Assembly: GCF_000518245.1 (NCBI RefSeq)
Contig: NZ_KI912403.1
Span: forward strand, 1 to 64,000
Reading direction: 5' to 3'
Length of the DNA stretch: 64,000 nt
Source: Brachyspira alvinipulli ATCC 51933
Lineage (GTDB): Bacteria; Spirochaetota; Brachyspiria; Brachyspirales; Brachyspiraceae
Shown here: piece after piece, positions 1 to 28,519 of the stretch
Layout: each line of letters starts with the position of its first letter
How positions within the stretch are numbered: position 1 is the stretch's first letter
Made by a program: the position numbers and the translations under genes
Notes under the pieces: model-generated
What the model was told of the DNA's origin: nothing
What the model saw: only the letters and a program-made list of their open reading frames with translations
The model's database searches: none

Positions 1-3000
1 CATCTATATAGTTTTTCTCATTAGATAAATGTTTCTGCTCTGATTCTTCTCTTGCTTTTTCTATCTCTTCCTGTACTAATTTTGAATAATCTGTCAAAGA
101 ATTCAATGAATTATTATAAACTTCACTAATCAATGAAGAGTAATGTTCATAACCTGACTTTATATCATTTATTAGTTTTTCTGAATCTTCAAACAATTTG
201 CTGTTTTCACCCAATCTATAGCTTTCTATATTTTTTATCTCTTCATTGTATCTTGCTACTGCATCATTTAGCATATTGTGAAGATTATCTAAATTGGAAG
301 TGATATCATTAGTAAGTCTAGAATCTACAGATGACAATTTATTTTCTATATCATAGATTTTACTGTCTATTTTCTCATAGATAGAGTTTTCTTTCTCTTC
401 TATTTTAGAAAGTATATCTGACAATATCTCTTCTTTCTTGTCCTCTGATGTTTCTAAATAGCTATTGATACTATTTTTTGCTTCTTCCAACTGAGATAAT
501 AACTCATTGATATGACCATCTTTCCAGCTAGATATATCATCACTCATAGATTCTATCTTAGCATTTAAATCGTTAAGATAATTTTCAAATTTTATCTCTG
601 TTTCTTTTTGAACTTCTTCTAATTCATTTCTCATCTCAGCAGCATATAGACTTCTGATTTTAGAACTATCTGACCAAGTATCTTCAAAATATTCCATACG
701 TCTTTCTAATCTATCTTTGAACTCTGAATTATATGTTTTGAAGTTATTGAATAGTTCTTCCAATTTATTTACTTCTTCTGTAAATAAAGTTTCAATACTG
801 TCATTTCTGCCTAATACATTAGATAAATTTTCTCTCATAGAAGATAATTTATTTTCAAGCTCTTCTTTATCTTTCAATATAATATCTTCTAACTCTGAAA
901 CCTTATCCATAGAATCACTTATATTGCTTCTAATATCATTTAGATCAAGGCTCAAAATACCTATATTGTACTCTAAATCTTTTCCTATAGAATCTTTTAA
1001 TCTGTTTTCTATCTCCTCAAATTTATATGAATCATCCATAACATCTTTTAATTCATTCAACCTATTCTCTAAATCTTCTAATTTAGAAAAATCATTCTTC
1101 AATGAATTGAAAGAATCTTCTAATGCTTGTTTTTCCAATACTAATTGAGATACTGTATCATCTTCTTTTAAGCTATTTAATTCTGCTTTTAAATTATCTA
1201 TTTTCTCTAATAATGATAATTTATCATCAGACATTAAATCTTTCAAATAATTAATATCACTTTCTGAAGTATTTACTCTATCAAATAAATCATTGAAAGC
1301 TTTTTCTATCTTTTCTTTCTCTTCTTCAAATAAGTCTGATATATCATAAGTATTTGATGTTAATACTTCTTCTTTGAAATTATCAAAGTCTGCTTTTAAT
1401 TCATCTACTTTTGAAGCAAGTGCATCTTTATCTGACTCTGCTAATTCATCTCTATCCAATATAGAATTTTTTAGCATATCTAATGATTCTTCAAAATTTG
1501 CATTTAATTCTTTATACTTATCCTTGATATCTGAAACTTCTGAAGTAATATTATATATTTCATTATCTATCTTAGAATTGATAGAACTTAAATGCATTTC
1601 TAATTCTGATATATATTCTTTATAATCAAATAATCTTTTTGATGCTTCCTCTTCTAATTGAGAAACTACAGAATTTATTCTGTTATCTGCTTCTTCATTG
1701 AATTTAGATATAGCATTACTCAAGTTATCGTTCAATGTATTAAATGATTCTTTTATCATATCATCTAATTGAGATTTACTATCATTTAAAATATTAATTT
1801 TATCTGCTATTTTCTCATCCAATTTATTAGAATACTCTTTTAAATACTCATCTATATAGTTTTTCTCATTAGATAAATACTTCTGCTCTGATTCTTCTCT
1901 TGCTTTAAATATTTCTGATTTTATCTTATTGGCATAATCAGATAAGGAAGATAATGAATCTTTATATGCTGAATTAATTAATTTTGAATAATAATCGTAG
2001 CCTGATTGTATATCTTCTAATAATTTACTGCCTTCTTCTGTTCTATGATGCTCTATATTCTTTATCTCTTCATCGTATTTAGATACAGCTTTATTAATTA
2101 AATTGCGTACTTCTTCTAAGCCTTTAGCCATATCATCTGATACTTTAGAATCTACATCAGACAATCTATTTTCCATATCTTCTATTTTAGAATCCATTTT
2201 CTCATAGATAGAATTCTCTTTCTCTTCTATCTTAGAAAGTATATCTGATAATATCTCTTCTTTCTTGCCTTCTGAGGTTTCTAAATAGTCATTGATACTA
2301 TTTTTAGCTTCTTCCAATTGTGACAATAACTCATTTATATGACCATCTTTCCAGCTGGATATATCATCATTCATTAACATTATCTTATTATTCAAGTCTT
2401 CAAGATAATTTTCAAATTTTATCTCTGTTTCTTTTTGAATCTCATCCAACTCATTTCTCATCTCAGCAGCATATAAACTTCTGATTTTAGAGCTGTCAGA
2501 CCAAGTATCTTCAAAATAATCCATGCGTCTTTCTAATCTGTCTCTGAACTTAGAATTATCTGTTTTGAAGTTATTGAATAGCTCTTCTAATTTATTTACT
2601 TCTTCTGTAAATAAAGTTTCAATACTGTCATTCTTACCTAAGACATTAGATAAATTTTCTCTTATAGAAGATAATTTATTTTCTAACTCTTCTTTTTCTT
2701 TAAGTATGCTCTCCTCTAATTCTGAAGATCTATTAATAGCTTCTTTTATAGAATTAATATCGCTATTTAATAATTCAACATTATTCATACTATCCTTTAA
2801 TTCATTTAAACTATTCTCTAAATCTTCTAATTTAGAAAAATCATTTCTTAATGAATTGAAAGAATCTTCTAATGCTTGTTTTTCCAATACTAACTGAGAT
2901 ACTGTATCATCTTCTCTTAAACTATCTAATTCTGATTTTAAATTATCTATCTTATCTAATAAGACAAATTTATCCTCAGATATTAAATCTTTCAAATAAT

Positions 3001-6000
3001 TTACATCACTTTCTGAAGCATTTACTCTATCAAATAAATCATTGAATGTTTTTTCTATCTTTTCTTTTTCTTCTTCAAATAAGTCTGATATATCATAAGT
3101 ATTTGATGTTAATACTTCTTCTTTGAAATTATCAAAATCTGTTTTTAATTCATCTATTTTTGAAGATAATAATTCTTTATCAGATGACTGAATAGTTAAT
3201 AATTCATCTCTATCTAATATAGAATTTTTTAGCATGTCTAATGTATCTTCAAAGTCAGAACTTAATTCTTTATATTTATTCTTAATATCTGAAACTTCTG
3301 AAGTAACATTATATATCTCATTATCTATCTTAGAATTAATAGAGCTTAAATGAGTCTCTAACTCAGACATATATTCTTTATAATTAAATAATCTGTTTGA
3401 TGCTTCAACCTCCAATCTAAAAACTGTCTCATTTATTCTCATATCAGCTTCTTTATTGAACTTAGCTATAGCATTATTCAAATTGATATTTAATGTATTA
3501 AATGATTCTTTAACCATATCATCAAGCTGTGCTTTGCTATCATTTAATATATTAACTTTATCTGCTATTTTCTCATCCAATTTATCAGAATATTCTTTCA
3601 AATACTCATCTATATAATTCTTCTCATTAGATAAATGTTTTTGTTCTGATTCTTCTCTAGCTTTTTCTATCTCTGCTTTTATTCTATTAGTATACTCAAA
3701 TAAAGAAGACAATGAATCTTTATATGTAGAATTAATCAAATTAGAATAATAATCATAGCCTGATTTGATATCATCTAATAATTTGGAATGTTCTTCTGCT
3801 CTATGATGTTCCATATTTTTTATTTCTTCATCATATTTAGATACAGCCTTATTTATTATAGCATGTACAACTTCCAAATTTTTAGACATACTATCTGATA
3901 TTTTAGAATCTGCAGCAGACAATCTGTTTTCCATATCTTTTATTTTATAATCTATTTTCTCATAGATAGAATTTTCTTTCTCTTCTATCTTAGAAAGTAT
4001 ATCTGATAATATCTCTTCTTTTTTGCCTTCTGATGTTTCTAAATAGCTATTGATACTATTTTTTGCTTCTTCAAACTGAGATAATAACTCATTAATATGT
4101 CCGTCTTTCCAGCTAGATATATCATCATTCATTGACATTATCTTGTTATTCAAATCTTCAAGATAATCTGCAAATTTTGTCTCTGTTTCTGATTTGATAT
4201 TATCTAACTCTTCTCTTAAATCTGAAGCGTATAAACTTCTTAATTTCTCACTGTCTGACCAAGTATCTTCAAAATAATCCATGCGTTTTTCTAATCTATG
4301 TCTAAACTCAAAATGATCTTTTTTGAAGTTATTGAATAAGTCATTAATATTTTGTACTTCTTCCTTAAATAGACTTTCTAAACTATCATTTTTACCTAAT
4401 ACATGATATAGATTTTCTTTTATAGAAGATAATCTATTTTCTAACTCTTCTTTTTCTTTGAGTATGCTGTCTTCTAATTCTGAAGATCTATTAATAGCTT
4501 CTTTGATAGAATTAATATCACTATTTAATAATTCTACATTTTTATCTATATCATCTTTTACTTTACCTTCAAACTTATCAGATAATATATCAACATAGTT
4601 CATACTATTTTTTAATTCATTCAAACTATTCTCTAAATCTTCTAATTTAGAAAAATCATTCTTCAATGAATTAAAAGAATCTTCTAATGCTTGTCTCTCT
4701 AATACTAACTGAGAAACTGTATCATCTTCTTTTAAATTATCTACTTCTTCACTCAAGTTTTCTATTTTTTCTAATAATGATAATTTATCTTCTGACATTA
4801 AATCTTTCAAATAATTTACATCATTTTCTGAATTATTCACCATATCTAATATCTCTTCAAAATCAGAAGTCAATTCTTTATATTTATTTCTTATATCTGA
4901 CATTTCTGAATCTAATTTTGAATTTATGTTATATATCTCATTATCTATCTTAGAATTGATAGAACTTAAATGCATTTCTAATTCTGCTATATATTCTTTA
5001 TAATCAAACAATCTTTTTGATGCTTCTTGTTCAAATTGAGAAACTACAGAATTTATCTTATTATTTGATTCCTCATCAAATTTTAATATAGCATTATTCA
5101 AAGATTCATTTAATGTATTGAATGAATCTTTTATCATATCATCAAGCTGAGTTTTAGTATCATCTAGTATAGTTATTCTCTCAGCTATTTTCTCATCCAA
5201 TTTATTAGAATATTCTTTCAAATATTCATCTATATAATTCTTCTCATTAGCTACATGTTTTTGTTCTGATTCTTCTCTAGCTTTTTCTATCTCTGCCTTT
5301 ATCCTATTAGTATACTCAGATAAAGAAGACAATGAATCTTTATATGTAGAATTAATTAATTTAGAATAATAATCATAACCTGATTGTATATCTTCTAATA
5401 ATTTATTGCCTTCTTCCGCTCTATGATGTTCTATATTCTTTATCTCTTCATCATATTTAGATACAGCTTTATTAATTAAATCACGTACTTCTTCTAAGCC
5501 TCTAGCCATATCATCTGAAACTTTAGAATCTACATCAGATAATCTATTTTCCATGTCCTCTATTTTAGAATCTATTTTTTCATAGATAGAATTCTCTTTC
5601 TCTTCTATCTTGGAAAGTATATCTGATAATATCTCTTCTTTCTTATCTTCTGATGATTCTAAATAGCTGTTTATACTATTTTTTGCTTCTTCTAACTGTG
5701 ATAATAACTCATTAATATGACCATCTTTCCAGCTAGATATATCATCATTCATAAGTATGATTTTATTATTCAAATTTTCAAGATAATCTGCAAACTTTAA
5801 TTCTGTTTCTTTTTGAATTTCTTCTAATTCATTTCTCATCTCAGCAGCATATATATCTCTAATTTTAGAACTGTCTGACCAAGTATCTTCAAAATAATCT
5901 ATACGTTTTTCTAATCTATCTTTAAACTCTGCATTATCTGTTTTGAAATTATTGAATAGTTCTTCTAATTTATTCACTTCTTCTGTAAATAAATTTTCCA

Positions 6001-9000
6001 TACTCTCATTTTGACCTAATACATTAGATAGATTTTCTTTTATAGAAGATAGTTTATTTTCAAGCTCTTCTTTTTCTTTTAATATGCTCTCTTCTAATTC
6101 TAATGATTTAGTTATAGTATTTCTAATAGAATTAATATCATTATTCAATGATTCAATATTATAATTGATATTTTTTTCTATATCTTCTTTTAAACTATTC
6201 TCCAAGCCTTCTAATTTAGCAAAGTCATTCTTTAATGAATTTAAAGAATCTTCCAATGCCTGTTTCTCTAATACCAATTTGGAAACTGTATCATCTTCTT
6301 TTAAATTATCAACTTCGGCTCTTAATCCATCAATTTTTTCCAATAATGATAATTTATCATCAGACATTAAATCTTTCAAATAATTAATATCGCTTTCAGA
6401 AGTATTTACTCTATCTAATAAATCATTGAAAGTTCTATCAATTTTTTCTTTCTCTTCTTCAAATAGGGCAGGTATGTCCTCTTTAGCAGCAACTAATATT
6501 TCTTCTTTGAAGTTTTCAAAGTCATTTTTTAACTCATCTATTTTTGAAGCTAGTAACTCTTTTTCTGAAGTTTGAAGTTCTATTAACTCATCTCTGTCTA
6601 ATATAGAACTTTTTACCACATCTAAAGCATCTTCAAAATCTATAGTTAAGTTTTTATATTTATTCTTAATATCTGACATTTCTGAGTCTAATTTTGAATT
6701 TAGACTATATATTTCATTATCTATTTTAGAATTAATAGAATTAAGATGAGTTTCTAACTCAGACATATATTCTTTATAATCGAATAATTTATCTGATGCT
6801 TCCATTTCTAATCTTGAAACAGCTTCATTTATTCTAGTATCTGCACTTTCATTAAATTTAGCTATAGCATCATTTAAATTATCATTTAATGTATTGAATG
6901 AATCTTTTATCATGTCATCAAGCTGAGTTTTAGTATCATTTAAGATATTAATTCTCTCAGACATTTTTTCATCCAATTTATTAGAATATTCTTTCAAATA
7001 CTCATCTATATAATTTTTCTCATTAGCTACATGTTTTTGCTCTGATTCTTCTCTAGCTTTTTCTATCTCTTCTTTGATTCTATTAGTATAATCTGATAAA
7101 GAAGACAATGAATCTTTATATGTAGAATTAATTAAATTAGAGTAATAATCATAACCTGATTGTATATCTTCTAATAATTTGCTGCCTTCTTCTGTTCTAA
7201 TATGTTCTATATTTTTTATCTCTTCATCATATTTAGATACAGCTTTATTTATTATATCATGTACTTCTTCTAAGCCTCTAGCTATATCATCTGATACTTT
7301 AGAATCTACATCAGACAATCTATTTTCCATATCTTCTATCTTAGAATCTATATTCTCATAAATAGAGTTCTCTTTTTCTTCTATTTTAGAAAGTATATCT
7401 GATAATATTTCTTCTTTCTTATCTTCTGATGATTCTAAATAGTTATTGATACTATTTTTAGCTTCTTCCAACTGAGATAATAATTCATTAATATGACCAT
7501 CTTTCCAGCTAGATATATCTGTATTAATATTTTCTAGTTCTGCTTTGAAATCAGATATCTGTTCTTCTTTCCAATTAGATAGATCACTGCTTATAGATTC
7601 CACTTTATTATTGAAATCATTGAAATAATTATCTAATTTTACTTCTGTTTCAGACTTGATGCTGTCTAATTCTTCTCTTAAATCTGAGGCGTATAATGCT
7701 CTAATTCTGTCGCTGTCAGACCATATATCCTCAAAATAATCCATACGTTTTTCTAATCTATTTCTAAACTCTATATTATCTGTTCTAAAATCACCAAAAA
7801 GTTCATTTATCTTTTTAACTTCTTCTTTGAAGAGTCCTTCCATATTTTCATTGCTGCCTAATACATTAGATAAATTTTCTCTTATAGAAGATAATTTATT
7901 TTCTAACTCTTCTTTTTCTCTAAGTATATTATTTTCCAATTCTGATGATTTATCTATAGAATCTCTTATATTGCTCTTAATACCGTCAATATCTTCTGTT
8001 ATTACGGAATATTTGTTTTCAAATTTATCATATAATTTTTTAACATCTTCTTCAACATTATCTTTTAATTGATAAACAGTATCCTCTAACTCACCTAATT
8101 TAGAAAAATCAGCTTTTATATTATTGAAAGAATCTTCTAATGACTGCTTTTCAAATACTAATTGAGCTATAGTATTATCTTTTACAGAGCTTATTTCTGA
8201 TTTTAAATCATCTATCTTTTCCAAGATGATAGATTTATTTTCAGATATTATATCTTTAACTTCATCTATATCATTTTCAGAACTGTTTACTCTCTCTAAA
8301 ATATTGTTGCTAAATTCTTCAAATGATTTCTCTATTTTTTCTTTTTCTTTTTCAAATAGGGCAGGAATCTCCTCTTCATTTGATTTCAACAATTCATCTC
8401 TAAAAGAAGCAAACTCTGTTTTTAATGAATCCATCTGTTCTGATAATAATTCTTTCTCAGAATTCTGCAGCTCAATTAATTCATCTCTTTCAAGTAAAGA
8501 ACCTTTTATCATATCTAATGCTTCATCAAAATCTGTACTTAAATTTTTATATTGAGTCTTAACACCAGATATTTCAGTATCTAATTTAGAAGAAATATTA
8601 TAAAGCTCATTATCTATTTTAACACTTATAGCTCTTAATTGATCCTCTAATTCAGCCATATATTTCTGTTCATTGAATAATCTAGCAGCAGCTTCTCTCT
8701 CTAATCTTTCAATAGCAGAATTTACTCTATTATTAGCATCTTCATTAAATCTATTAACTGCCTCATTCAAATTAGAATTCAATACATTAAATGATTCTTT
8801 TATCATATCATCCAATTGAACTTTGCTTTCACTTAATATATTTAATTTATCATTAACCTGCTCTTCAAGTTTAGAAGAATAATCTTTTAAATACTCATCT
8901 ATATAATTTTTCTCATTAGCCACATGTTTGCTTTCTGATTCTTCTCTAGCTCTCTCTATCTCACTTTTTATATTCTCAAGATGAGTTTCTAATTCAGCAA

Positions 9001-10914
9001 CAGCATCTTCATAGATCTTATCTATCATCAATGAATATTCTTCATAATCTTCACGTATGCTGTTTCCTAAATCTTCAATATCAGAGATAAGCTCTTCAGC
9101 TTCATTTGCTCTATGATGTTCTATTCTCTTTATTTCTTCATTATACTTTTCTACAGATTCATTTATTCTGTTATGTATATCTTCTAAACTATTTCCTATA
9201 GCATTATTCAATTTTTCATCTATAGTAGAAAGTTTATTTTCTGCCTCTAATATCCTTTCATCTATACGTGAATAAATTTCATTTTCTTTATGCTCTATAG
9301 TGTTTAGCATATCAATAAGGAATTGATTCTTTTTACCTTCTGAACCATCTATAAAGCTTTCTATACCTTTTTTAGCTTCATCTAATTGGGCAAGCAAGTC
9401 ATTTAAATTACATTTTTTCCAATCATATATTTCCTGTTCTATTTGATCCATTTGTTTTTTCAACTGTGCTATATGATTGTCAAATTTAACATCAGCTTCT
9501 TTTCTTATATTTTCAACTTCTTCTCTAATATCTGCCGCATATATACTTTTTATTCTAGTATTATCAGACCACATATCTTCAAAATAAGATATACGTTTTT
9601 CAAGTCTGTCTTTAAACTCCTCATTGTTGGAAGCTAAATTATTAAATATAGAATCCAATCTATCTTTTTCATTGTCTAACATATCTTTAATTTCATTCTT
9701 GCTTAATAAGTTAGACATATTATTTTTAAGATTATCTATAGCAGAATCTATAGTATTTCTTTCTCTTGTTATTCTATCTTCGATAATAGAAGTTTTATTT
9801 ATTGAATCTAATAAATTTTCTCTTACAGTATCAAAATTTCTATTAAGAGTTTCTAAATCTCTGTATATACTGTCAGAATCTTTTTCTATTTTTTCCTCTA
9901 AATTTTCTTTTAATCCTTTTAATTTTTCAGACAAATCTTTAACATCATCTTTTAAACCAGAATCTATACCTTCCATTCTGTTTTTAAGATTAATAAAGTC
10001 ATTCTCCAAATCTATAATTTTTCCGAAATCTTCTTTCAATATATTTAAAGAATTTTCTAATACTGCTTTCTCTTCAGATAAAACTTCAACTGTATTGTCA
10101 TCTTTTATAGCATCAACATCGCTTCTTAAAAGTTCTACCTGAGATATTAAATGATTTCTCTCTTCAGACAAAATATCTTTGATATAGTGTATATCACTTT
10201 CACTATCTGCAAGTCTCATAAGAAGATTCTTACTAAACTCATCAAACATATTCTCTATTTTTTCTTTCTCTTCATCAAAAAGAGCAGGTATTTCAATTTC
10301 ATTTGTTCTCAATACCTGATCTTTAAACAATTCAAATTCTTCTTTTAAATCATCTATTTGATTCTTTAGTAATTCCTTCTCACTGTTTTGAAGCTCTATC
10401 AATTCTTCTCTATCAATTATAGACGATTTGATATCATCTATTATATCATTAAATTCTTTCTTATCATCTAATATTCTTGATTTTAGATCTTCTATTTCAT
10501 TAGATAATATTTCTTTAACAGTATCTATTACATCAGCAATATCTTTTACATGCTCTAATCTGTCATTATGTTCATCCAATATAGCAAGTACATTTTCATT
10601 ATTAGAAATTAATTTATCTGCTTGATCTCTCAATTTATCATCAACATTATCTTTCAATGATATAAACTCATTTCTTAAATCTTCTAATGTTAATCCTACA
10701 CTATCTCTAACTTCCAATGCAGCATCGGATATAACTTTTTCAGCATGCTCTTTTATATTCTCTATAGACTTTAAAGCTTTCTCTTCACTATCTCTTCTAA
10801 TGTTAGCTAGGATATAAGAAAATCCCTTATATAAAGTATTAAATGAGTCATTCAAATTTGCATTTAAATTATTAACTTCCTCATCTATTTTAGAAGATGT
10901 CTTGCTTAAATATT
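1..10914 (-). repeat. Six tandem 1.6-2.0 kb in-frame repeat units inside the giant coiled-coil gene
   Basis: The segment encoding NEKNYIDEYL (plus strand: catctatatagtttttctc and close variants) recurs at about 1, 1849, 3607, 5227, 7003, 8896 and 10915. This defines units of 1848, 1758, 1620, 1776, 1893 and 2019 bp, all multiples of three (616, 586, 540, 592, 631 and 673 residues). Units also share a WKDGHINELLSQLEE segment (near 510, 2340, 4100, 5720 and 7490) and a YFEDTWSDS segment (near 670, 2500, 4260, 5880 and 7720). The copies nearest the left edge (C-terminal) look almost identical at DNA level, while those nearer the gene start are more diverged. The array may continue beyond the window. 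Confidence 0.85.
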
Positions 10915-13900
10915 CATCTATATAATTAGATTCGTTATTAAGATGCTTAGCTTCAGATTCTTCTCTTGCAGCTTCAATCTCATTTTTTAATTCTTCAGCA
11001 TAGTTATTTAAAGAAGATTTCTCATTATTATAAAGCTCTTCGAGCATATTAGTATACTGTTCATAATCTCTTCTTATTCCAGCACCAATATTTTCAATAT
11101 CTTCTATTATGCTTTTATTCTCTTCAAGTCTGTAAGTTTCTATATCCTTTATTTCTTCTTTATATCTGTCTATAGCACCGTCAATTAATGATCTGAGTTC
11201 ATTTAATTTCTTGAAAGTATCTTCTTCTACATTAGCAAATATATTTTCGCATTTTTTGTCAAGAGATTTCTTTTTCTCTTCTATATAAGAATCAATAACT
11301 CCTGTTTTTTCATCAATAACTGACTGCATATTATTAGCATTATCAATGATTTGACTTATTCTTTCACCTAAATTCTCTATACGCATTTTATATTCATCAG
11401 TCATTAAAGAAGCATGATGTTTTAATTCTTCATAATCATCTTTTAAATCATTAGAATATTTTTCAAGCATAGCATGATATTCAGAACTTATAGCATTTAA
11501 ATCTGCTCTTCTTTCATCAAGAACGCTGTCTATTCTTTTTCCTAAAGAATTATATTTATCTTCAATATCAGACATTAATTCTTTTTCTTTATCTTCTGCA
11601 TTTTCATAAACTTTATTTATAGTACGTTCAAAAGCATCTTTTCCACTTTCAACTCTATGCATGATATCTTCTATTTCATCTTTTATTCTGTTCATGCTGT
11701 CTCTTTTTTCATTTAAAAGAATGTCAAAAGAGTCTGTAGCTTGACGAAGCTCATTATGAAGCATATCAACTACTTCATTTTTATTTTTATCATTGATTTT
11801 TATATTTTCATCTATAACATCATCTATTTTATTTTTAAACTCACCTAAAGAGTTTTCCATATTATTTAGCATTGCTTCATGTCTTTTTTCACTTTCATCA
11901 ACCTGATTAAGTACTGAATCAATGCTGTCTGTTATAGCTTTCATTTTTGTTTGTTCATAATTATCTAAAACGTCTTTTAGATGTTTTTTCAAACTGTCTA
12001 TATAAGCTTCACTATATTCTGATAATTCTTTTTTAATGTCATCTATTTTATCTTCAGCATCTTTCATTCCAGTATCTAATCTTTCGTTAGCTCTGCTTAC
12101 TAAACCATTTATCTCAGTAGATGATTTCTCTAATATTTCTAAACGTTTTTCTATATTTTCTTTTATATTAGTTTCCGTTTCTTTGCTCAAAGTATCTATA
12201 TCAGAAGAAGCTCTGTCATACTGTTCTTTCAAACTTGACAATTTCTCATCCATAGCACCTAAATCATGGGCTGTATTTTTTATATAATTATCTATATTCT
12301 CTTCTAACTCAGTTTTTATAGTGCTGAATAAAGTATCAAGTTCTCTAACTTTATCATTAGCCTGAGTTTCTAAATCTTTATATAAATATTCTTTCTGCAA
12401 GCTTAAAGAATCTAATATTTCTTCCTGTTTGTTATTAAGTATAGATATTATTTCAGAAGTTTGATAATGAGTTTCATCTATTTTGTCTTTTAATAGATTA
12501 GTTTCCATTTCAACATCATTTCTAAGCTCATTGATTTCGGCTATTAAAGAACTTCTGGCATTATCTATAGAATATTCCATATCATCCTGAGCTCTTGCTA
12601 ATATATCATCTTTTAATTTGTTGATATCATTAACTATATCATCAAATCTGCTTTCTGCTTTAAGCATAGTTTCTTCGCTCATACCATCTATAGATATGAT
12701 TAAATCATTAAGCTCTTTTGTTTTATTTCTATAGAGAGTTATAACACCATCATCTTCATTTTCAAGTATATTTCTTATATGATTTGAGAAATTCTCAACT
12801 TCTGCTATAAATCTGCTGTTTATATCATCTTTTAATGATGTAAATTCATTTTCTAATTGATGTGCTTTTTGAGCATAATCCTGACTTATATAATCAGCCT
12901 TATCTTTTATATCATCTATAGACTTTTCCAAAGAATGTGCTTTCTGCTCTATAGAGTCTAAGAACTCCTCTCTATCCTGAGTTATTTTTTCAAGACCTTC
13001 TTTTAGAGTAGAGTATAGCATTTCTTTTGTTTTTTCCATCTCATCTTTGAACTCTAATACACTTGATTCTGTTATAGAGTTCAATCTGTCATGTATAGTA
13101 TCTCTCAAATTATTTAATTCTGCTTCTAATCCGTCTTTAGATTGACTTAGAGTCTCATAACGGTTTTCTATATCTTTAGATTTAACATCTATTTCATCTG
13201 CAAATGATGAATATTTATTAATAAGCTCATCTCTTCCTTTCTCAAATAGTTCTGCCAACTGTTCTATATTATGACGTGCTGTTCTTTCAGCAAGCTGAGT
13301 AAGCTGATTTGTAAATAATTCCTCTTTTTTAGCAACATGCTGCTTAAATTCTTCAGTAAGAGCAGAAATTTTTTCTTTTTCCTGCTCAGCCATAGTGCTG
13401 TAATGGGCATCGCGTGCCAAGAGATTGGTAGTAAGGGCATCAAATCTCTTATAAAGCTCACTTTCAAACTCATTTAACTTAGAATTATAAGATTCTATAA
13501 GTTTATCTTGTATAGAACCAACATTTTTTTCTAATTCTGTCATCTTAGCTTTAACATCAGATATTCTTTTATATGTTTTTTCTATAGTATTACGCTCTTT
13601 TAAAACAGTATCTACTTTATTAAGTATCTCAAGATATGCTTCTTCAAGAGAATCCACCTGTTCCTGATACTGTGAAACTGCAGCTTTATAATCTTTGTAA
13701 GATTCTATTCTTTTGTTTAGTTTAGCTAGATCTTCTTCCATAGATTTGCTTATAAATCCGGCTTTTTTAACGGCTATTTCCAAATCTATGGCATTATCTC
13801 TAACTTCAGATATTTTTTCTTCAACTATTCCCTCAATAGCGGCTTTTTCTTCAGCAAATAAATCGTTCAAATCGTTTCCATAAGGATTTTTTTTCTTATC

Positions 13901-13969
13901 TATTATTCTAGTAATTCCGACAATAGCAGTAGGTACAACGAATATTAGTACAAGATATAGGATAGACAT
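1..13969 (-). CDS. Giant membrane-anchored coiled-coil repeat protein (SpiroCoCo-like), C-terminus outside the window
   Basis: The frame is open from an ATG at 13969 to the left edge, at least 4656 codons, so stop and true length are unknown. The start has a GGAG five bases upstream. Residues 2-22 are a hydrophobic segment, followed by a basic stretch (RIIDKKK), which by the positive-inside rule puts the long C-terminal part in the cytoplasm. The rest is almost entirely charged, Glu/Lys/Asp/Ser/Leu/Ile-rich sequence of coiled-coil type with no recognisable enzyme domain. Residues 1 to about 1017 are not obviously repeated; beyond that lie six tandem units. From memory this resembles proteins RefSeq names SpiroCoCo family. 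A structural or cytoskeletal role is inference only. It stands alone, divergent from the sulfatase locus. Myosin-like or SMC-like labels would be composition artefacts, since no ATPase head is seen. Confidence 0.9.
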   Translation of the reverse strand, partial: MSILYLVLIFVVPTAIVGITRIIDKKKNPYGNDLNDLFAEEKAAIEGIVEEKISEVRDNAIDLEIAVKKAGFISKSMEEDLAKLNKRIESYKDYKAAVSQYQEQVDSLEEAYLEILNKVDTVLKERNTIEKTYKRISDVKAKMTELEKNVGSIQDKLIESYNSKLNEFESELYKRFDALTTNLLARDAHYSTMAEQEKEKISALTEEFKQHVAKKEELFTNQLTQLAERTARHNIEQLAELFEKGRDELINKYSSFADEIDVKSKDIENRYETLSQSKDGLEAELNNLRDTIHDRLNSITESSVLEFKDEMEKTKEMLYSTLKEGLEKITQDREEFLDSIEQKAHSLEKSIDDIKDKADYISQDYAQKAHQLENEFTSLKDDINSRFIAEVENFSNHIRNILENEDDGVITLYRNKTKELNDLIISIDGMSEETMLKAESRFDDIVNDINKLKDDILARAQDDMEYSIDNARSSLIAEINELRNDVEMETNLLKDKIDETHYQTSEIISILNNKQEEILDSLSLQKEYLYKDLETQANDKVRELDTLFSTIKTELEENIDNYIKNTAHDLGAMDEKLSSLKEQYDRASSDIDTLSKETETNIKENIEKRLEILEKSSTEINGLVSRANERLDTGMKDAEDKIDDIKKELSEYSEAYIDSLKKHLKDVLDNYEQTKMKAITDSIDSVLNQVDESEKRHEAMLNNMENSLGEFKNKIDDVIDENIKINDKNKNEVVDMLHNELRQATDSFDILLNEKRDSMNRIKDEIEDIMHRVESGKDAFERTINKVYENAEDKEKELMSDIEDKYNSLGKRIDSVLDERRADLNAISSEYHAMLEKYSNDLKDDYEELKHHASLMTDEYKMRIENLGERISQIIDNANNMQSVIDEKTGVIDSYIEEKKKSLDKKCENIFANVEEDTFKKLNELRSLIDGAIDRYKEEIKDIETYRLEENKSIIEDIENIGAGIRRDYEQYTNMLEELYNNEKSSLNNYAEELKNEIEAAREESEAKHLNNESNYIDEYLSKTSSKIDEEVNNLNANLNDSFNTLYKGFSYILANIRRDSEEKALKSIENIKEHAEKVISDAALEVRDSVGLTLEDLRNEFISLKDNVDDKLRDQADKLISNNENVLAILDEHNDRLEHVKDIADVIDTVKEILSNEIEDLKSRILDDKKEFNDIIDDIKSSIIDREELIELQNSEKELLKNQIDDLKEEFELFKDQVLRTNEIEIPALFDEEKEKIENMFDEFSKNLLMRLADSESDIHYIKDILSEERNHLISQVELLRSDVDAIKDDNTVEVLSEEKAVLENSLNILKEDFGKIIDLENDFINLKNRMEGIDSGLKDDVKDLSEKLKGLKENLEEKIEKDSDSIYRDLETLNRNFDTVRENLLDSINKTSIIEDRITRERNTIDSAIDNLKNNMSNLLSKNEIKDMLDNEKDRLDSIFNNLASNNEEFKDRLEKRISYFEDMWSDNTRIKSIYAADIREEVENIRKEADVKFDNHIAQLKKQMDQIEQEIYDWKKCNLNDLLAQLDEAKKGIESFIDGSEGKKNQFLIDMLNTIEHKENEIYSRIDERILEAENKLSTIDEKLNNAIGNSLEDIHNRINESVEKYNEEIKRIEHHRANEAEELISDIEDLGNSIREDYEEYSLMIDKIYEDAVAELETHLENIKSEIERAREESESKHVANEKNYIDEYLKDYSSKLEEQVNDKLNILSESKVQLDDMIKESFNVLNSNLNEAVNRFNEDANNRVNSAIERLEREAAARLFNEQKYMAELEDQLRAISVKIDNELYNISSKLDTEISGVKTQYKNLSTDFDEALDMIKGSLLERDELIELQNSEKELLSEQMDSLKTEFASFRDELLKSNEEEIPALFEKEKEKIEKSFEEFSNNILERVNSSENDIDEVKDIISENKSIILEKIDDLKSEISSVKDNTIAQLVFEKQSLEDSFNNIKADFSKLGELEDTVYQLKDNVEEDVKKLYDKFENKYSVITEDIDGIKSNIRDSIDKSSELENNILREKEELENKLSSIRENLSNVLGSNENMEGLFKEEVKKINELFGDFRTDNIEFRNRLEKRMDYFEDIWSDSDRIRALYASDLREELDSIKSETEVKLDNYFNDFNNKVESISSDLSNWKEEQISDFKAELENINTDISSWKDGHINELLSQLEEAKNSINNYLESSEDKKEEILSDILSKIEEKENSIYENIDSKIEDMENRLSDVDSKVSDDIARGLEEVHDIINKAVSKYDEEIKNIEHIRTEEGSKLLEDIQSGYDYYSNLINSTYKDSLSSLSDYTNRIKEEIEKAREESEQKHVANEKNYIDEYLKEYSNKLDEKMSERINILNDTKTQLDDMIKDSFNTLNDNLNDAIAKFNESADTRINEAVSRLEMEASDKLFDYKEYMSELETHLNSINSKIDNEIYSLNSKLDSEMSDIKNKYKNLTIDFEDALDVVKSSILDRDELIELQTSEKELLASKIDELKNDFENFKEEILVAAKEDIPALFEEEKEKIDRTFNDLLDRVNTSESDINYLKDLMSDDKLSLLEKIDGLRAEVDNLKEDDTVSKLVLEKQALEDSLNSLKNDFAKLEGLENSLKEDIEKNINYNIESLNNDINSIRNTITKSLELEESILKEKEELENKLSSIKENLSNVLGQNESMENLFTEEVNKLEELFNNFKTDNAEFKDRLEKRIDYFEDTWSDSSKIRDIYAAEMRNELEEIQKETELKFADYLENLNNKIILMNDDISSWKDGHINELLSQLEEAKNSINSYLESSEDKKEEILSDILSKIEEKENSIYEKIDSKIEDMENRLSDVDSKVSDDMARGLEEVRDLINKAVSKYDEEIKNIEHHRAEEGNKLLEDIQSGYDYYSKLINSTYKDSLSSLSEYTNRIKAEIEKAREESEQKHVANEKNYIDEYLKEYSNKLDEKIAERITILDDTKTQLDDMIKDSFNTLNESLNNAILKFDEESNNKINSVVSQFEQEASKRLFDYKEYIAELEMHLSSINSKIDNEIYNINSKLDSEMSDIRNKYKELTSDFEEILDMVNNSENDVNYLKDLMSEDKLSLLEKIENLSEEVDNLKEDDTVSQLVLERQALEDSFNSLKNDFSKLEDLENSLNELKNSMNYVDILSDKFEGKVKDDIDKNVELLNSDINSIKEAINRSSELEDSILKEKEELENRLSSIKENLYHVLGKNDSLESLFKEEVQNINDLFNNFKKDHFEFRHRLEKRMDYFEDTWSDSEKLRSLYASDLREELDNIKSETETKFADYLEDLNNKIMSMNDDISSWKDGHINELLSQFEEAKNSINSYLETSEGKKEEILSDILSKIEEKENSIYEKIDYKIKDMENRLSAADSKISDSMSKNLEVVHAIINKAVSKYDEEIKNMEHHRAEEHSKLLDDIKSGYDYYSNLINSTYKDSLSSLFEYTNRIKAEIEKAREESEQKHLSNEKNYIDEYLKEYSDKLDEKIADKVNILNDSKAQLDDMVKESFNTLNINLNNAIAKFNKEADMRINETVFRLEVEASNRLFNYKEYMSELETHLSSINSKIDNEIYNVTSEVSDIKNKYKELSSDFEDTLDMLKNSILDRDELLTIQSSDKELLSSKIDELKTDFDNFKEEVLTSNTYDISDLFEEEKEKIEKTFNDLFDRVNASESDVNYLKDLISEDKFVLLDKIDNLKSELDSLREDDTVSQLVLEKQALEDSFNSLRNDFSKLEDLENSLNELKDSMNNVELLNSDINSIKEAINRSSELEESILKEKEELENKLSSIRENLSNVLGKNDSIETLFTEEVNKLEELFNNFKTDNSKFRDRLERRMDYFEDTWSDSSKIRSLYAAEMRNELDEIQKETEIKFENYLEDLNNKIMLMNDDISSWKDGHINELLSQLEEAKNSINDYLETSEGKKEEILSDILSKIEEKENSIYEKMDSKIEDMENRLSDVDSKVSDDMAKGLEEVRNLINKAVSKYDEEIKNIEHHRTEEGSKLLEDIQSGYDYYSKLINSAYKDSLSSLSDYANKIKSEIFKAREESEQKYLSNEKNYIDEYLKEYSNKLDEKIADKINILNDSKSQLDDMIKESFNTLNDNLSNAISKFNEEADNRINSVVSQLEEEASKRLFDYKEYISELEMHLSSINSKIDNEIYNITSEVSDIKDKYKELNANFEESLDMLKNSILDRDELAESDKDALASKVDELKADFDNFKEEVLTSNTYDISDLFEEEKEKIEKAFNDLFDRVNTSESDINYLKDLMSDDKLSLLEKIDNLKAELNSLKEDDTVSQLVLEKQALEDSFNSLKNDFSKLEDLENRLNELKDVMDDSYKFEEIENRLKDSIGKDLEYNIGILSLDLNDIRSNISDSMDKVSELEDIILKDKEELENKLSSMRENLSNVLGRNDSIETLFTEEVNKLEELFNNFKTYNSEFKDRLERRMEYFEDTWSDSSKIRSLYAAEMRNELEEVQKETEIKFENYLNDLNAKIESMSDDISSWKDGHINELLSQLEEAKNSINSYLETSEDKKEEILSDILSKIEEKENSIYEKIDSKIYDIENKLSSVDSRLTNDITSNLDNLHNMLNDAVARYNEEIKNIESYRLGENSKLFEDSEKLINDIKSGYEHYSSLISEVYNNSLNSLTDYSKLVQEEIEKAREESEQKHLSNEKNYID

Positions 13970-13992: not shown

Positions 13993-14017
13993 TTAACATA
14001 ATTCTATATTATGTTAA
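13993..14017. promoter_or_regulatory. Inverted repeat TTAACATAA-N7-TTATGTTAA over the giant-gene promoter
   Basis: Two perfect 9-bp arms at 13993-14001 and 14009-14017 flank the -10 element of the giant coiled-coil gene. A dyad overlapping a -10 is a reasonable operator candidate. AT-rich dyads also arise by chance in this genome, and no cognate regulator is identified. Confidence 0.4.
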
Positions 14018-14029
14018 TGTATATGTCAA
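14001..14029 (-). promoter_or_regulatory. Sigma-70-like promoter of the giant coiled-coil gene
   Basis: On the minus strand TTGACA (14029-14024) is followed after 17 bases by TAGAAT (14006-14001). Predicted transcription start is near 13994, leaving about 25 bases of leader with the GGAG ribosome site before the ATG at 13969. Confidence 0.7.
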
Positions 14030-14303: not shown

Positions 14304-15413
14304 ATGAATAAATTATTTATTTTAATAAAACCTTCTTCCTCGTTATGCAACATGAACTGCAAATATTGCTTTTATAAAGATATAGCCAATATAAGACATA
14401 CAAAAAACTATGGATTTATGCAAGAAAACACCATGAAAAACATTATAGATAAATCCTTTAATACCATAACAAAAAATGGATATATACATTTTGCTTTTCA
14501 GGGAGGGGAACCTACACTTATAGGTTTAGAATATTTTTATAGTTTTATTAATTACATTAAACAAAAAAATACTAAAAATATAAATATATCATATTCTATA
14601 CAAACAAATGGGGATTTAATAAATGATGAATGGGCTAAATTATTTGTAAACAATAACTTTTTAGTAGGTCTTTCCTTTGACTTATTAGAAAAAATACATA
14701 ATAAATTAAGAATAAAAAACAATTTACCTACTTATGATATTGTACTCAATGCAAAAGAAATATTAGACAAATATAATGTTGAATACAATATATTAACAGT
14801 ATTAAGCAAAGAATTATCACATTATCCTAAAGAAATATATAATGAAATAAAAAATAAAAATATAGAATATATACAATTTATACCATGTATAGGTGAATTA
14901 GAAAATAATATTAATATAATAGAAGAATACAGTATAAAACCGCGTGAATTTGCATATTTCTATAACTCTATATTTAAAATGTGGGAAAAAGATATTTTGA
15001 ATGGGCGTTATTTAAGTATATCATTTTTTGATAATATCTCAGAATTATTAGCTGGTTACCACCCAACCACATGCGGAATAGATGGAATATGCCATAACCA
15101 TTTAGTTATTGAGAGTAATGGAAATATATACCCTTGCGATTTTTACTGTATAGATAAATACTATTCTGGAAATATTAATACAGATGATTTAATTGATGTA
15201 ATTAATAATCAAAATAGAATCAATTTCACAAATGATCTAAAAAAAATAAATACCAAATGTACATCATGTAAATTTTATAAATTATGTAACTCTGGCTGCA
15301 AAAGAATGTATAATAACATATATATAGAAGACAATTTTTGCGGAATGGAAAATTTTCTAAAAAATAATATAAACTCAATAATAAAAATCTTAAAATTAAA
15401 AAATATTCTATAA
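14304..15413 (+). CDS. Anaerobic sulfatase-maturating enzyme (radical SAM, SPASM domain)
   Basis: This 369-residue enzyme should convert the active-site Cys of a sulfatase to formylglycine without oxygen. The radical SAM cluster motif C15-x3-C19-x2-C22 is at the N-terminus, and a GGEPT motif lies near residue 70. The C-terminal third carries the many cysteines of a SPASM domain (TCGIDGIC, YPCDFYC, CTSCKFYKLC, SGCKRM, NFCGM) that bind auxiliary Fe-S clusters. The family is typically about 370-400 residues, so it looks complete. The sulfatase gene starts 75 bases downstream with a CTPSR site, its likely substrate. No clear SD precedes the ATG; the leader holds an 8-bp tandem repeat. A different SPASM peptide-modifying enzyme is possible, but the neighbour makes sulfatase maturation the best call. 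Confidence 0.88.
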   Translation: MNKLFILIKPSSSLCNMNCKYCFYKDIANIRHTKNYGFMQENTMKNIIDKSFNTITKNGYIHFAFQGGEPTLIGLEYFYSFINYIKQKNTKNINISYSIQTNGDLINDEWAKLFVNNNFLVGLSFDLLEKIHNKLRIKNNLPTYDIVLNAKEILDKYNVEYNILTVLSKELSHYPKEIYNEIKNKNIEYIQFIPCIGELENNINIIEEYSIKPREFAYFYNSIFKMWEKDILNGRYLSISFFDNISELLAGYHPTTCGIDGICHNHLVIESNGNIYPCDFYCIDKYYSGNINTDDLIDVINNQNRINFTNDLKKINTKCTSCKFYKLCNSGCKRMYNNIYIEDNFCGMENFLKNNINSIIKILKLKNIL

Positions 15414-15417
15414 AAAA

Positions 15418-15446
15418 TTGACAATGCATTATTTATTTACTATACT
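15418..15446 (+). promoter_or_regulatory. Strong consensus promoter upstream of the sulfatase gene
   Basis: TTGACA (15418-15423), 17-base spacer, TATACT (15441-15446). It lies directly after the stop codon of the maturase gene and gives the sulfatase and probably the transporter genes their own transcript, starting near 15453. Confidence 0.78.
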
Positions 15447-15488
15447 ATATAAGTAAATGTTACAGTACACGCAAAGAGATTGAAAAAG

Positions 15489-16910
15489 ATGAATAATAAT
15501 CCAAATATAATATTAATAACAGCCGATCAAATGAGAGCCGATTCTATAGGATATATTAATGAAGAATTAGAAACACCAGTATTAGATGAATTAGCAGAAA
15601 ATGGAACAATATTTAATAATTCTTTTTGTACAAGTCCAGTATGCACACCATCAAGAGCATCCATATTTACAGGTAGATATCCTATGAATACAGGAGCTTG
15701 GAATATAGGTACAGAATTAAATGAAGATGAAATAACATTAGCAGATTATTTAAAAAAAGAAAATTACTTTAATATAGCTGTTGGTAAAATGCATTTCAGA
15801 CCTCAGCTAAAAAATCTAAATTGGGAATTTGAAGATGTGCCAAAGAGAGATAGGGTAAGAGAAAGAGATAAAACATATTATGGTTTTGATATAACACATA
15901 TAACAGAAGATGATAAACAAGGTGAATATTTAGATTTCGCTAATAGTCATGGATGTAATTTAGAAACAGGTAAAGGAATTGATGGGATAAACCCTATACC
16001 GGAGGAATTACATCAAACCTATTGGACAGCACAGAAAGCTATTGATGAGATAGATAATTTTAATTTTGATAAACCATTATTTATGTGGGTAAGTTTTGTT
16101 GATCCTCATCATCCATTCGATCCTATAAAAAAGTATTATGATATTTATAAAGATATTAATCCTAAAGAGCTTAATAGTAAATTAAAGTTAGATGATAAAA
16201 GGCCGGAGCATTTAACCAAACAAGGTGAAAGAGGTTATTGGCCAGGTGGTGGAGAAAAGCATCCTTTTACTGAAGAAGAAATAAAAGAAATTAAAAGATT
16301 ATATTATGGAATGATCAGTTTTATAGATGCTCAAATAGGTCGAATTATAGATAAACTAAAAGAAAAAAATGAATTTGAAAATACTATAATAGTTTTTACA
16401 AGTGATCATGGAGAATATTTAGGGGATTATGGATTACTAAAAAAAGGGCCTTTTATGTACGACTGTTTGATAAAAGTACCTCTATTATTTTATGGAAAAG
16501 GCATAATAAAAAATAACAGTAATGAAATAATAGAAAATGTAGATATAGTTCCAACACTATTAGATATATTAGGAAAAGAAATTCCTTATGGTATACAAGG
16601 ACATAGCATTAAAAATATTTTAACAGGAAAAGATAAAGATAAAAGTTATAAAAAAGGTGCTATCATTACTTATGATGCTCATGATAGAGGTATATTTATA
16701 AAAACATACAGAACTAAACAATACAAACTTTCAATATTTTTAGATGAAGAATATGGAGAGTTTTATGATTTGGAAAAAGATCCTAAAGAGGAAAATAATC
16801 TATTCTTTAATAAAGAATATGATGAAATAAAGAATAAATTATTATTAGAGATGTGTCATAAAATGATAGAATGCAGTGACCCTTTAAATAAAAGATATGC
16901 TAGTTGGTAA
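15489..16910 (+). CDS. Sulfatase of the alkaline-phosphatase superfamily, cytoplasmic type
   Basis: A 473-residue type I sulfatase hydrolysing a sulfate ester. N-terminal ITADQMRAD supplies metal-binding residues. The sequence C-T-P-S-R (about residues 52-56, numbered from the ATG at 15489) is the formylglycine motif C-x-P-S-R. Later motifs are GRYP, VGKMHF, the DPHHPF segment and the metal-site SDHGE near residue 311. A TTG at 15480 would extend it by three residues; the ATG is preferred. There is no signal peptide or lipobox, so the enzyme should stay in the cytoplasm, unlike most bacterial sulfatases that attack glycans outside the cell. It is followed by ABC importer genes, consistent with uptake before desulfation. 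The substrate (choline-, aryl- or sugar-sulfate) cannot be read from the sequence. Maturation probably needs the radical SAM enzyme encoded upstream. Confidence 0.9.
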   Translation: MNNNPNIILITADQMRADSIGYINEELETPVLDELAENGTIFNNSFCTSPVCTPSRASIFTGRYPMNTGAWNIGTELNEDEITLADYLKKENYFNIAVGKMHFRPQLKNLNWEFEDVPKRDRVRERDKTYYGFDITHITEDDKQGEYLDFANSHGCNLETGKGIDGINPIPEELHQTYWTAQKAIDEIDNFNFDKPLFMWVSFVDPHHPFDPIKKYYDIYKDINPKELNSKLKLDDKRPEHLTKQGERGYWPGGGEKHPFTEEEIKEIKRLYYGMISFIDAQIGRIIDKLKEKNEFENTIIVFTSDHGEYLGDYGLLKKGPFMYDCLIKVPLLFYGKGIIKNNSNEIIENVDIVPTLLDILGKEIPYGIQGHSIKNILTGKDKDKSYKKGAIITYDAHDRGIFIKTYRTKQYKLSIFLDEEYGEFYDLEKDPKEENNLFFNKEYDEIKNKLLLEMCHKMIECSDPLNKRYASW

Positions 16911-22470: not shown

Positions 22471-23976
22471 ATGAATTCTTCAGAAAATGATAATGATATA
22501 AAAAAAGAACTATGGGCTGCTTCTGATAAGTTAAGAGGCAATATAGACGCTTCAGAATATAAGCATGTAATACTTGGACTTGTATTTTTAAAATATATCT
22601 CTGATAAATTCAAGCTAAGATATGATGAACTTGTGCAGGAAGGTATGGATATGCAGGATGATATAGATGCCTATAGAGCGGATAATATATTTTATCTGCC
22701 TGAAGAGTCAAGATTTGATTATATATCATCGCAGGCACGTTCTGATGAAATAGGTGCTATTATAGATAATGCAATGCAGAAAATAGAAGAAAATAATATA
22801 AAATTAAAAGGCATACTTCCTAAAAATTACAGCCGCCCGGAACTTGATAAAAGAAGACTAGGGGAGATAATAGATTTATTTTCTAATATAAAAATAGCTA
22901 ATAAAAATAAAAAAGATATATTAGGAAATGTGTACGAATATTTTTTATCGCAATTTGCAACTGCCGAAGGAAAGAGAGGAGGAGAGTTCTATACGCCATC
23001 CCCAATAGTTAAACTTTTAGTTGAAATATTAGAACCGTATAAAGGAAGAATATATGATCCTTGTTGCGGAAGCGGAGGAATGTTTGTACAAAGTGCAAAG
23101 TTTTTGGAGGCACATTCTCAAAGTGTAAATAATATATCAGTATACGGACAGGAAAGTAACCCTACAACTTGGAAACTCTGTAACATGAATATAGCAATAC
23201 ATGGAATAGACGGCAATTTGGGAGATAAAAATGCGGATACTTTTTTTGAAGATTTGCATAACAAATTGAAAGCAGATTATATATTAGCAAATCCTCCTTT
23301 TAATATGTCAGATTGGGGAGCAGATGCCTTAAAAGATGATTATCGTTGGAAATGGGGGATTCCTCCTAATGGAAATGCCAATTACGGGTGGCTTTCTCAT
23401 ATAGCATCAAAATTATCAGAAAACGGTAAAGCTGGTGTGGTATTAGCAAACGGATCTCTTTCTACTCAAACATCAGGCGAGGGTTTAATAAGAGAGAATA
23501 TGATAAAAGATGATTTGATAGAATGTATAATATCTCTTCCTACTCAATTATTTATATCTACTCAAATACCTGTTTCATTATGGTTTTTGAATAAGGATAA
23601 AAAGCAGAAAGGACATATACTTTTTATAGATGCAAGAAATTATGGAAGAATGGAGAGCAGGGTTCAAAGGGTATTAGATAACGAAGATATAGAAGCAATA
23701 GCAAAAACGGTTCATAGCTGGCAGGAAGGCAAAGGCTATAAAGATATAAAAGGATACTGCAAAAGTGCATCTTTGGAAGAAATAGCAAAAGAAGATTATA
23801 TACTTACAACAGGACGTTATGTAGGACTTGAAGAGGAAGATAATAAAGAAGAAGATTTTGATTTCAAAATGAAAGTTTTAACGGAAGAATTGGGCGAATG
23901 TTTTAAAGAAAGCAGGAAATTGGAAAAGATAATAAAGGATAATTTAGAGGAAATAGGCTATAGTATCCCAAAATAA
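22471..23976 (+). CDS. hsdM: Type I restriction-modification system methyltransferase subunit HsdM
   Basis: A 501-residue N6-adenine methyltransferase. The N-terminal helical HsdM_N domain (residues 8-130) begins KELWAASDKLRGN. The catalytic domain has the SAM-binding motif I (DPCCGSGGMF, about residues 199-208) and the catalytic motif IV N-P-P-F (ANPPFNMSDWG, about 274-284). The C-terminal tail (residues 465-501) is helical and may contact HsdS. The length is typical. Unlike a standard hsdRMS operon, hsdM stands alone on the plus strand while hsdS and hsdR lie 1.4-5.9 kb away on the other strand. The ATG at 22471 follows GGGG at a usable distance. Confidence 0.93.
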   Translation: MNSSENDNDIKKELWAASDKLRGNIDASEYKHVILGLVFLKYISDKFKLRYDELVQEGMDMQDDIDAYRADNIFYLPEESRFDYISSQARSDEIGAIIDNAMQKIEENNIKLKGILPKNYSRPELDKRRLGEIIDLFSNIKIANKNKKDILGNVYEYFLSQFATAEGKRGGEFYTPSPIVKLLVEILEPYKGRIYDPCCGSGGMFVQSAKFLEAHSQSVNNISVYGQESNPTTWKLCNMNIAIHGIDGNLGDKNADTFFEDLHNKLKADYILANPPFNMSDWGADALKDDYRWKWGIPPNGNANYGWLSHIASKLSENGKAGVVLANGSLSTQTSGEGLIRENMIKDDLIECIISLPTQLFISTQIPVSLWFLNKDKKQKGHILFIDARNYGRMESRVQRVLDNEDIEAIAKTVHSWQEGKGYKDIKGYCKSASLEEIAKEDYILTTGRYVGLEEEDNKEEDFDFKMKVLTEELGECFKESRKLEKIIKDNLEEIGYSIPK

Positions 23977-24148
23977 CATTTATTATTATGTATTAAATAT
24001 ATGAAGCAATATAACCACAATAAAATTAGGTTATGTTGTATATAAATCGTAATATATAATAAGCATATTTTAAAGCTAGAAAAGAACTTCTATTTTTTAT
24101 ATATTATGCCTAAAAGCACTAAAGTAGATTAGCCTTAAATAAACAATA

Positions 24149-24679: not shown

Positions 24680-24717
24680 TAATGCATATCCGTAATTTTT
24701 TTATTTATTAATGCTAG

Positions 24718-24746
24718 ATTATACTATAATATATAAAAAAGTTCAA
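24718..24746 (-). promoter_or_regulatory. Promoter of the small lipoprotein gene
   Basis: On the minus strand TTGAAC (24746-24741), 17-base spacer, perfect TATAAT (24723-24718). This gives a leader of about 30 bases before the ATG at 24679. Confidence 0.7.
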
Positions 24747-24785
24747 TTATTGCTAATTATAAATAATAACTTTTAAGGCTTAAAA

Positions 24786-24881
24786 ATGGAAAATCATAGA
24801 AACCCTTTAGTATATATTGGTATAATGTTAGTAACATTTTTTATTATTGGTTTTATTGTTTATGCTATAATTAAGTTTTAA
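24786..24881 (+). CDS. Possible 31-residue single-span membrane protein
   Basis: A short frame of 31 codons plus stop encodes a polar start (MENHRNP) followed by about 22 consecutive hydrophobic residues and a terminal K-F. An AAGG lies about ten bases before the ATG, and there is room for a promoter in the divergent region. Composition is exactly that of a small membrane protein, but a frame this short in AT-rich DNA can be chance. No family is recognised. Confidence 0.35.
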   Translation: MENHRNPLVYIGIMLVTFFIIGFIVYAIIKF

Positions 24882-28490: not shown

Positions 28491-28519
28491 AAATAAAACT
28501 CCTATACTGTATGCTATAT

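Follow-up and report, generated by a model that had tools for sequence, protein, structure and literature searches.

Brachyspira alvinipulli encodes one of the largest bacterial proteins, a chain of about 8,200 amino acids which consists of a membrane helix, some 8,000 nearly uninterrupted helical residues, a basic linker and a C-terminal HTH. Domain scores settle, at the level of sequence, that this giant is a member of the SpiroCoCo family of NCBIfam. The family name is already known; what appears to be new is the giant repeat-built form, the near-untwisted period shared by the family, its co-occurrence with flagella, the likeness of its terminal domain to FipA/DUF6115 proteins and the presence of a paralogue in an flhF operon. 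It is proposed, tentatively and at somewhat less than even chances, that the giant acts as a flagellum-linked scaffold, a cytoplasmic membrane-tethered rod that would serve the system organising the polar flagella or the cell body. The fixed subpolar placing of the rows of motors in spirochaetes, and the organisation of so long and thin a cell, are largely unexplained. Here there is a length-adjustable rod of cellular dimensions, found in essentially all flagellated spirochaetes sampled, whose end domain is of the kind that brings FlhF to the pole in other bacteria. The size and universality of the family will surprise the specialist, and the question can be tested through a single gene.

The window, the whole stretch of 64,000 nucleotides that was analysed, starts at base 1 of contig C2. 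Its edge is thus a contig edge, and the gene runs off the contig, not off the chosen window. On the minus strand, a frame scan from ATG 13969 to this edge gave 4,656 codons free of stops, for which the chance is about 10^-171 at the given base composition. When the last 566 residues were searched against the organism's own genome, the search matched C4:1-438 with 100% identity. Contigs C2 and C4 overlap by 439 bp with 1 mismatch, and the other repeat copies show at most 74% identity over their length. The frame goes on into C4 and stops at C4:11076 (L017), giving a joined protein of 8,201 aa from a gene of 24.6 kb. The preliminary description, which had proposed extending the contig to find the stop, was right about the unbroken minus-strand frame; its figure of at least 4656 residues is real as a lower bound but is not the length of the protein. 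A 701-residue stretch spanning the join aligns continuously with seven other species at 60-65% identity; a near-identical extra repeat copy could still be hidden there. The gene and the signals before it are placed as follows, in window coordinates unless a contig is named.

2-13969, minus strand: giant SpiroCoCo-family gene, residues 1-4656 of 8,201 (open frame, contig join, colinearity with relatives)
Contig C4 up to 11076 (L017): giant gene, residues 4657-8201 (contig join)
13975-13978, minus strand: Shine-Dalgarno sequence GGAG, 5 nt before ATG 13969 (sequence reading; GGAG at the same start in related species)
14001-14029, minus strand: sigma-70-like promoter TTGACA-17-TAGAAT (11/12 match, by consensus only)

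Matches to a sigma-70-like promoter are no commoner upstream of the giant gene than in shuffles. ATG 13999 was ruled out as the start codon; it sits at the expected start of the transcript and is without a Shine-Dalgarno sequence. Elsewhere in the window, a radical-SAM-like gene with a CNMNCKYC motif lies directly before a sulfatase-like gene (14304-16910), and the two look like a sulfatase and its maturation enzyme. At 22471-28547, HsdM-like and HsdR-like frames suggest, by reading only, a type I restriction-modification system.

The part of the protein encoded in the window carries the following features.

13910-13963, minus strand: single N-terminal transmembrane helix, about residues 3-20 (KD scan; hydrophobic helix in 21/21 rows of alignment A4)
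13292-13951, minus strand: SpiroCoCo_N domain, residues 7-226 (NF047514, 154.2 bits against a cut-off of 75; alignment A1)
13887-13894, minus strand: A8 tract coding KKK after the membrane helix, the sole homopolymer of at least 8 in the 24.6-kb gene
7739-9586, minus strand: internal repeat 1, residues 1462-2077, from YFED.WS
5897-7738, minus strand: internal repeat 2, residues 2078-2691
4277-5896, minus strand: internal repeat 3, residues 2692-3231
2519-4276, minus strand: internal repeat 4, residues 3232-3817
692-2518, minus strand: internal repeat 5, residues 3818-4426
2-691, minus strand: internal repeat 6, its beginning, from residue 4427; the rest is on contig C4

Over the full protein, a membrane helix scored only at residues 1-20 (KD19 2.52; best elsewhere 1.0), and the basic residues (KKK) behind it suggest an N-out/C-in topology. 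From residue 1462 the rod is built of tandem units of 540-670 residues with the markers YFEDTWS, SSWKDG and AREES...YIDEYL; species of Brachyspira differ in how many of these markers they have, from 2 to 10. The copies differ by insertions, including ones of 22 and 7 residues, with the 7/11 register kept. An AlphaFold model of one repeat module was of low confidence (pLDDT 58) and had helix breaks near WSDS and ETSEGK. At the C-terminus, the structure model shows a long helix, a linker and three short helices as an HTH. A profile search of solved structures gave no convincing match. Matches along the rod to Baculo_PEP_C, Exonuc_VII_L, ATG17 and SMC-like families (Pfam/NCBIfam) were rejected as compositional or periodicity matches, because they covered no domain and varied among relatives.

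The distribution and sequence of the gene within the genus are those of a real protein. Of the 26 genomes of the genus, 24 contain the N-terminal 200 and the C-terminal 200 residues of the giant, each once, and the 21 good genomes all have both ends. Identity to the window protein over the N-terminal 270 residues is 83-91% across the genus, and all 13 named loci with the giant C-terminus come from Brachyspira or a Brachyspira-like uncultured spirochaete. Assembled copies in the genus have 3,898-9,113 residues, with intact single frames of 7,077-9,113 residues in several species and of 3,898-5,572 in others. A chance open frame is ruled out by its probability and by dN/dS, which in three species pairs (4,800-7,800 codons) was 0.03-0.24 in every 700-codon block and lowest in the first 1,400 residues. 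Homopolymers of at least 7 number 4 in the giant gene against 24.7 expected from synonymous shuffles; the rest of the genes in the window show a weaker depletion (58 against 64.6 expected). An assembly or sequencing error that fused several genes, or a frame that is not expressed, might be read from the contig break inside a repeat array crossed by the gene and from the broken frame of two assembled copies, but such an artefact has negligible probability and is already refuted at genus level by frames of about 7,000-9,100 codons that run without interruption in the genomes of several species, assembled independently and some of them single-contig, by purifying selection over the full length, and by an avoidance of homopolymers of at least 7 well beyond that of neighbouring genes.

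In most species of Brachyspira the membrane helix has an A8-A9 tract after it. In the complete genome G008, a frameshift at this tract parts the anchor from the rod, which may be a sequencing error or phase variation. In G010 (L085, C1:754001-774000), an otherwise complete genome, a frameshift near residue 790 splits the giant frame, again through error or as a real break.

The second family domain, SpiroCoCo_C (NF047515), scored 212.8 bits against a cut-off of 125 over the last ~325 residues. SpiroCoCo_N and SpiroCoCo_C thus lie on two contigs here, which have been joined, and in one open frame in complete relatives. Long proteins of Borrelia-, Treponema pallidum- and Leptospira-type genomes match both domains, and Brachyspira profiles found orthologues with both ends in sister genera (one of 3,597 residues) and, within the order, in a second family, where the frames have 1,765 and 1,935 residues. 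Two motifs recur phylum-wide: FRxxDxxNRSLxK after the membrane helix (alignment A4) and QGWxxxEIAxxTxLSxGEVELIL at the protein end (alignment A5). The family (NF047514/NF047515, and the LA_3659 family NF047516) has the same plan of membrane helix, coil and HTH as the giant, and the same spread through the phylum. Brachyspira members differ in length, having 3,898-9,113 residues through their tandem repeats, whereas most other spirochaetes have about 700-3,400. They differ also in a C-terminal domain that is basic and without the conserved leucine.

The NCBIfam entry gives the family a name and states no function. Literature searches made without the name SpiroCoCo found no paper describing the giant, BB0512, TP0408 or DUF6115, and the B. 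hyodysenteriae genome paper, when searched by word, proved not to mention the giant. From gene order, the Borrelia orthologue is presumably BB0512 and that of T. pallidum TP0408. A HAD phosphatase gene lies directly upstream of the long gene in Borrelia-type, T. pallidum-type and another Treponema-type genome; in Borrelia burgdorferi the long gene has pheS on its other side. Two genomes carry long SpiroCoCo-type genes in tandem, of 2,786 and 1,304 residues (L156:1935-14231, G026) and of 3,014 and 1,377 residues (L162:4056-17224, G039), so that some spirochaetes have paralogous rods of different length.

The hydrophobic residues of the giant recur with a period of 3.645, at a power of 10.1 compared with 3.0 at 3.5 and 1.2 in shuffled sequence. 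Each of the 28 family members tested has a period of 3.625-3.645, with 2-8 times the power seen at 3.5. A canonical heptad coiled coil (period 3.5) is thereby ruled out. The phase is coherent over 600 residues in members of 1,000-3,000 residues, and breaks more often in the Brachyspira rod. If the helices pair, a period this close to the pitch of the helix itself would leave them with little or no supercoil. With its phylum-wide period of 3.64, the family lends itself well to the study of nearly untwisted coiled coils in nature.

Parts of the earlier picture have to be redrawn at this point. The preliminary description was correct that one N-terminal membrane helix is followed by basic residues. 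It had nothing but coiled coil thereafter, whereas the chain ends in a basic linker and HTH, and the continuous heptad coil it assumed fails on the 3.64 period and on the phase breaks of the Brachyspira rod. The structure prediction that it called for modelled helix, linker and HTH at the C-terminus and gave, for a repeat module, the low pLDDT stated above. Its rod of roughly 0.7 micrometres was of the right order; an 8,201-aa protein wholly extended as helix would instead span ~1.2 micrometres. Nor is the protein an orphan, since NCBIfam already holds the family. The HTH, the SpiroCoCo family, the tandem repeats, the 3.64 period and the orthologues in Borrelia-, Treponema- and Leptospira-type genomes were all absent from that description.

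By sequence, the terminal domain of the giant resembles DUF6115/DUF2802, the domain type of FipA. DUF6115 (PF19610) is passed by two relatives (27.2 and 29.5 bits against a cut-off of 27) and scores up to 40.3 bits phylum-wide; it gave no score against the C-terminus of the giant itself. DUF2802 (PF10975) reached 15.7 bits (E 0.018) in the giant, below the gathering score of 33.5. FipA, a DUF2802 protein of 163 residues from gamma-proteobacteria, is a pole determinant which recruits FlhF to the cell pole, and its gene lies just after flhA-flhF-flhG-fliA (PMC11620751). It has a short N-out segment, one membrane helix, a coil and a C-terminal domain, and binds FlhF via the conserved G110 and L129; the membrane helix is needed (PMC11620751). 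FipA homologues have been reported absent from spirochaetes (PMC11620751), whereas DUF2802/DUF6115-like single-pass proteins were seen here throughout the phylum, some of them in the flhF operon.

On its predicted topology, the giant shares with FipA the N-out segment, the single membrane helix, the cytoplasmic coil and the C-terminal domain, and FlhF is encoded in its genome. In alignments, the spacing of the invariant G110, E126 and L129 of FipA equals that of G, E (+16) and L (+19) in spirochaetes, and the giant keeps the spacing of G and E. The differences are size (163 against 8,201 residues), the DUF2802 score below cut-off, and the counterpart of L129, which is L in most other spirochaetes but K, R or T in Brachyspira, so that direct binding of FlhF by the giant is doubtful. 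Unlike fipA, the giant gene is not beside flhF/flhG. It occupies C2:1-13969, and flhF lies on the same contig at C2:97148-99151, as do FlhG and FlhA (FlhG and the context of FlhA by reading, FlhA itself by PF00771). The long gene is outside the flagellar operon in Brachyspira and does not adjoin flagellar genes in most spirochaetes examined; in a T. pallidum-type genome fliI is about 3 kb from it.

Short DUF6115 paralogues are present in the same genomes. These have a membrane helix, a coil and a C-terminal HTH homologous to that of the giant, in about 165-270 residues (alignment A8, from which the S. thermophila short-paralogue row was left out). Many short DUF6115 matches lie within 10 kb of flhA.

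L221:9001-9813: short DUF6115 paralogue (Brachyspira)
L222:6311-6808: short DUF6115 paralogue (Borrelia-type genome)

Unlike the giant, the short paralogue is found in the flhA-flhF cluster in the Borrelia-type genome, where the cluster reads flhB-flhA-flhF-flhG-FapA, and in Spirochaeta thermophila. Its position parallels that of SwrB (YlxL) of Bacillus subtilis, a single-pass protein which activates flagellar export and is encoded by the last gene of the fla/che operon (PMC4526659). SwrB resembles the giant in crossing the membrane once and differs from it in size and gene position. In a DUF6115 control some B. subtilis protein matched, a control which did not identify that protein as SwrB.

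In a set of 149 spirochaete genomes, every one of them with FlhA (PF00771), the C-terminal profile matched 147. When the sample was larger, most of the genomes listed without a match came from one family, f47, in which FlhA was found in 0 of 81 genomes and profile matches in only 3, these being weak and consisting of coil alone or short frames. The link to the flagellated spirochaete body plan that the preliminary description had drawn is borne out by these counts, none of the matches in the 81 FlhA-negative genomes being convincing. The family f47 is probably Sphaerochaetaceae and, as is general for Sphaerochaeta, probably coccoid. The joint loss with flagella concerns one family and is probably one event; f47 has probably also lost the elongated cell shape. 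Separately, G102 and G153 are the sole FlhA-positive genomes of the 149 without a match to the long-protein profile.

As a flagellum-linked scaffold, the chain would extend into the cytoplasm as a long coiled-coil rod with little supercoil, nearly straight in view of a period, 3.64, that comes near the pitch natural to an alpha helix. The cell of B. hyodysenteriae measures about 10 by 0.3 micrometres (PMC7225975); a rod of up to 1.2 micrometres is too long to span a cell ~0.3 wide and would have to run lengthwise beneath the membrane or double back on itself. The terminal domain might, by analogy with FipA or SwrB, be a protein-binding module for the FlhF/FlhG-type placement and export machinery. 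The giant would then be a tether or scaffold that helps to order the periplasmic flagellar motors in their polar or subpolar rows, together with the surrounding cell cylinder. Size differences among Brachyspira arise through gain and loss of the 540-670-residue units, making the length of the rod adjustable in evolution. The cytoplasmic filament or tether of the preliminary description survives as a membrane-anchored cytoplasmic rod, on the predicted topology; the role in cell shape that it named is possible and is not distinguished from flagellum positioning.

That role in shape, close to the view of the preliminary description, is the strongest competitor, although a rather unlikely one. The protein would be a mechanical element, a membrane-tethered cytoskeletal strut along the protoplasmic cylinder that makes it stiff or curved without being tied specifically to flagellar assembly. 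Its micrometre-scale size and the very regular straight-rod periodicity would suit such a strut, as would its presence in nearly all flagellated spirochaetes and its absence from the FlhA-less family, presumably coccoid. The two roles, in filament and cell shape or in flagellum positioning, are not separated by this distribution because f47 appears to have lost both features. The far end of the protein argues against the strut, its most conserved feature being a DUF6115/DUF2802-like domain of the FipA type tied to flagellar placement; moreover, no filament-forming family was recognised.

The predicted HTH raises a different possibility, that of a tether whose C-terminus binds DNA, with the rod holding the chromosome at a fixed distance from the inner membrane. 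In a PDB fold search with the C-terminal model, the best matches were all HTH DNA-binding domains (resolvase, NarL/LuxR type), none of them significant, and in Brachyspira the domain and the linker are both basic, at +2 to +4 each. In most of the other members, however, the domain is acidic or close to neutral, and the conserved part of its last helix is GEVELILE rather than a basic recognition helix. The related FipA domain is a protein-binding module (PMC11620751), and loss together with flagella is not what one would expect of a nucleoid tether. A tether of this kind is improbable.

Less probable still is an unpaired, extremely long amphipathic helix lying flat on the inner leaflet and lining the membrane in the manner of an apolipoprotein. 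It is kept as a weak rival on account of a charge pattern like that of lipid-binding helices, with lysine and arginine most frequent along the borders of the non-polar face and acids in the middle of the polar face, and of PF01442, which two relatives pass (98.8 and 107.9 against 90 bits); the 11-residue periodicity is also in keeping with it. The PF01442 match reflects a shared 11-mer periodicity, however, and the best piece of the giant scores 67.9 bits, below 90. The edge positions in Brachyspira hold as many acids as bases, and a net charge of about -110 per 1,000 residues would be unfavourable on an anionic membrane.

A distinctly speculative reading is that the family is a molecular ruler. 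A single straight membrane-tethered helical rod of about 0.15-1.3 micrometres would set an axial distance in the cell through its number of repeats, and a FipA/SwrB-like head would read the position. The distance set might be, for example, the spacing between the rows of periplasmic flagellar motors or that between these rows and the pole.

In Brachyspira, the Borrelia-type genome and Spirochaeta thermophila, a conserved gene of 106-123 residues immediately precedes the short DUF6115 paralogue.

L221:8608-8979, L222:6827-7147 and L224:12164-12496: conserved 106-123-residue gene

The two of these three that were searched gave no Pfam match, and the gene is a candidate unnamed flagellar gene.
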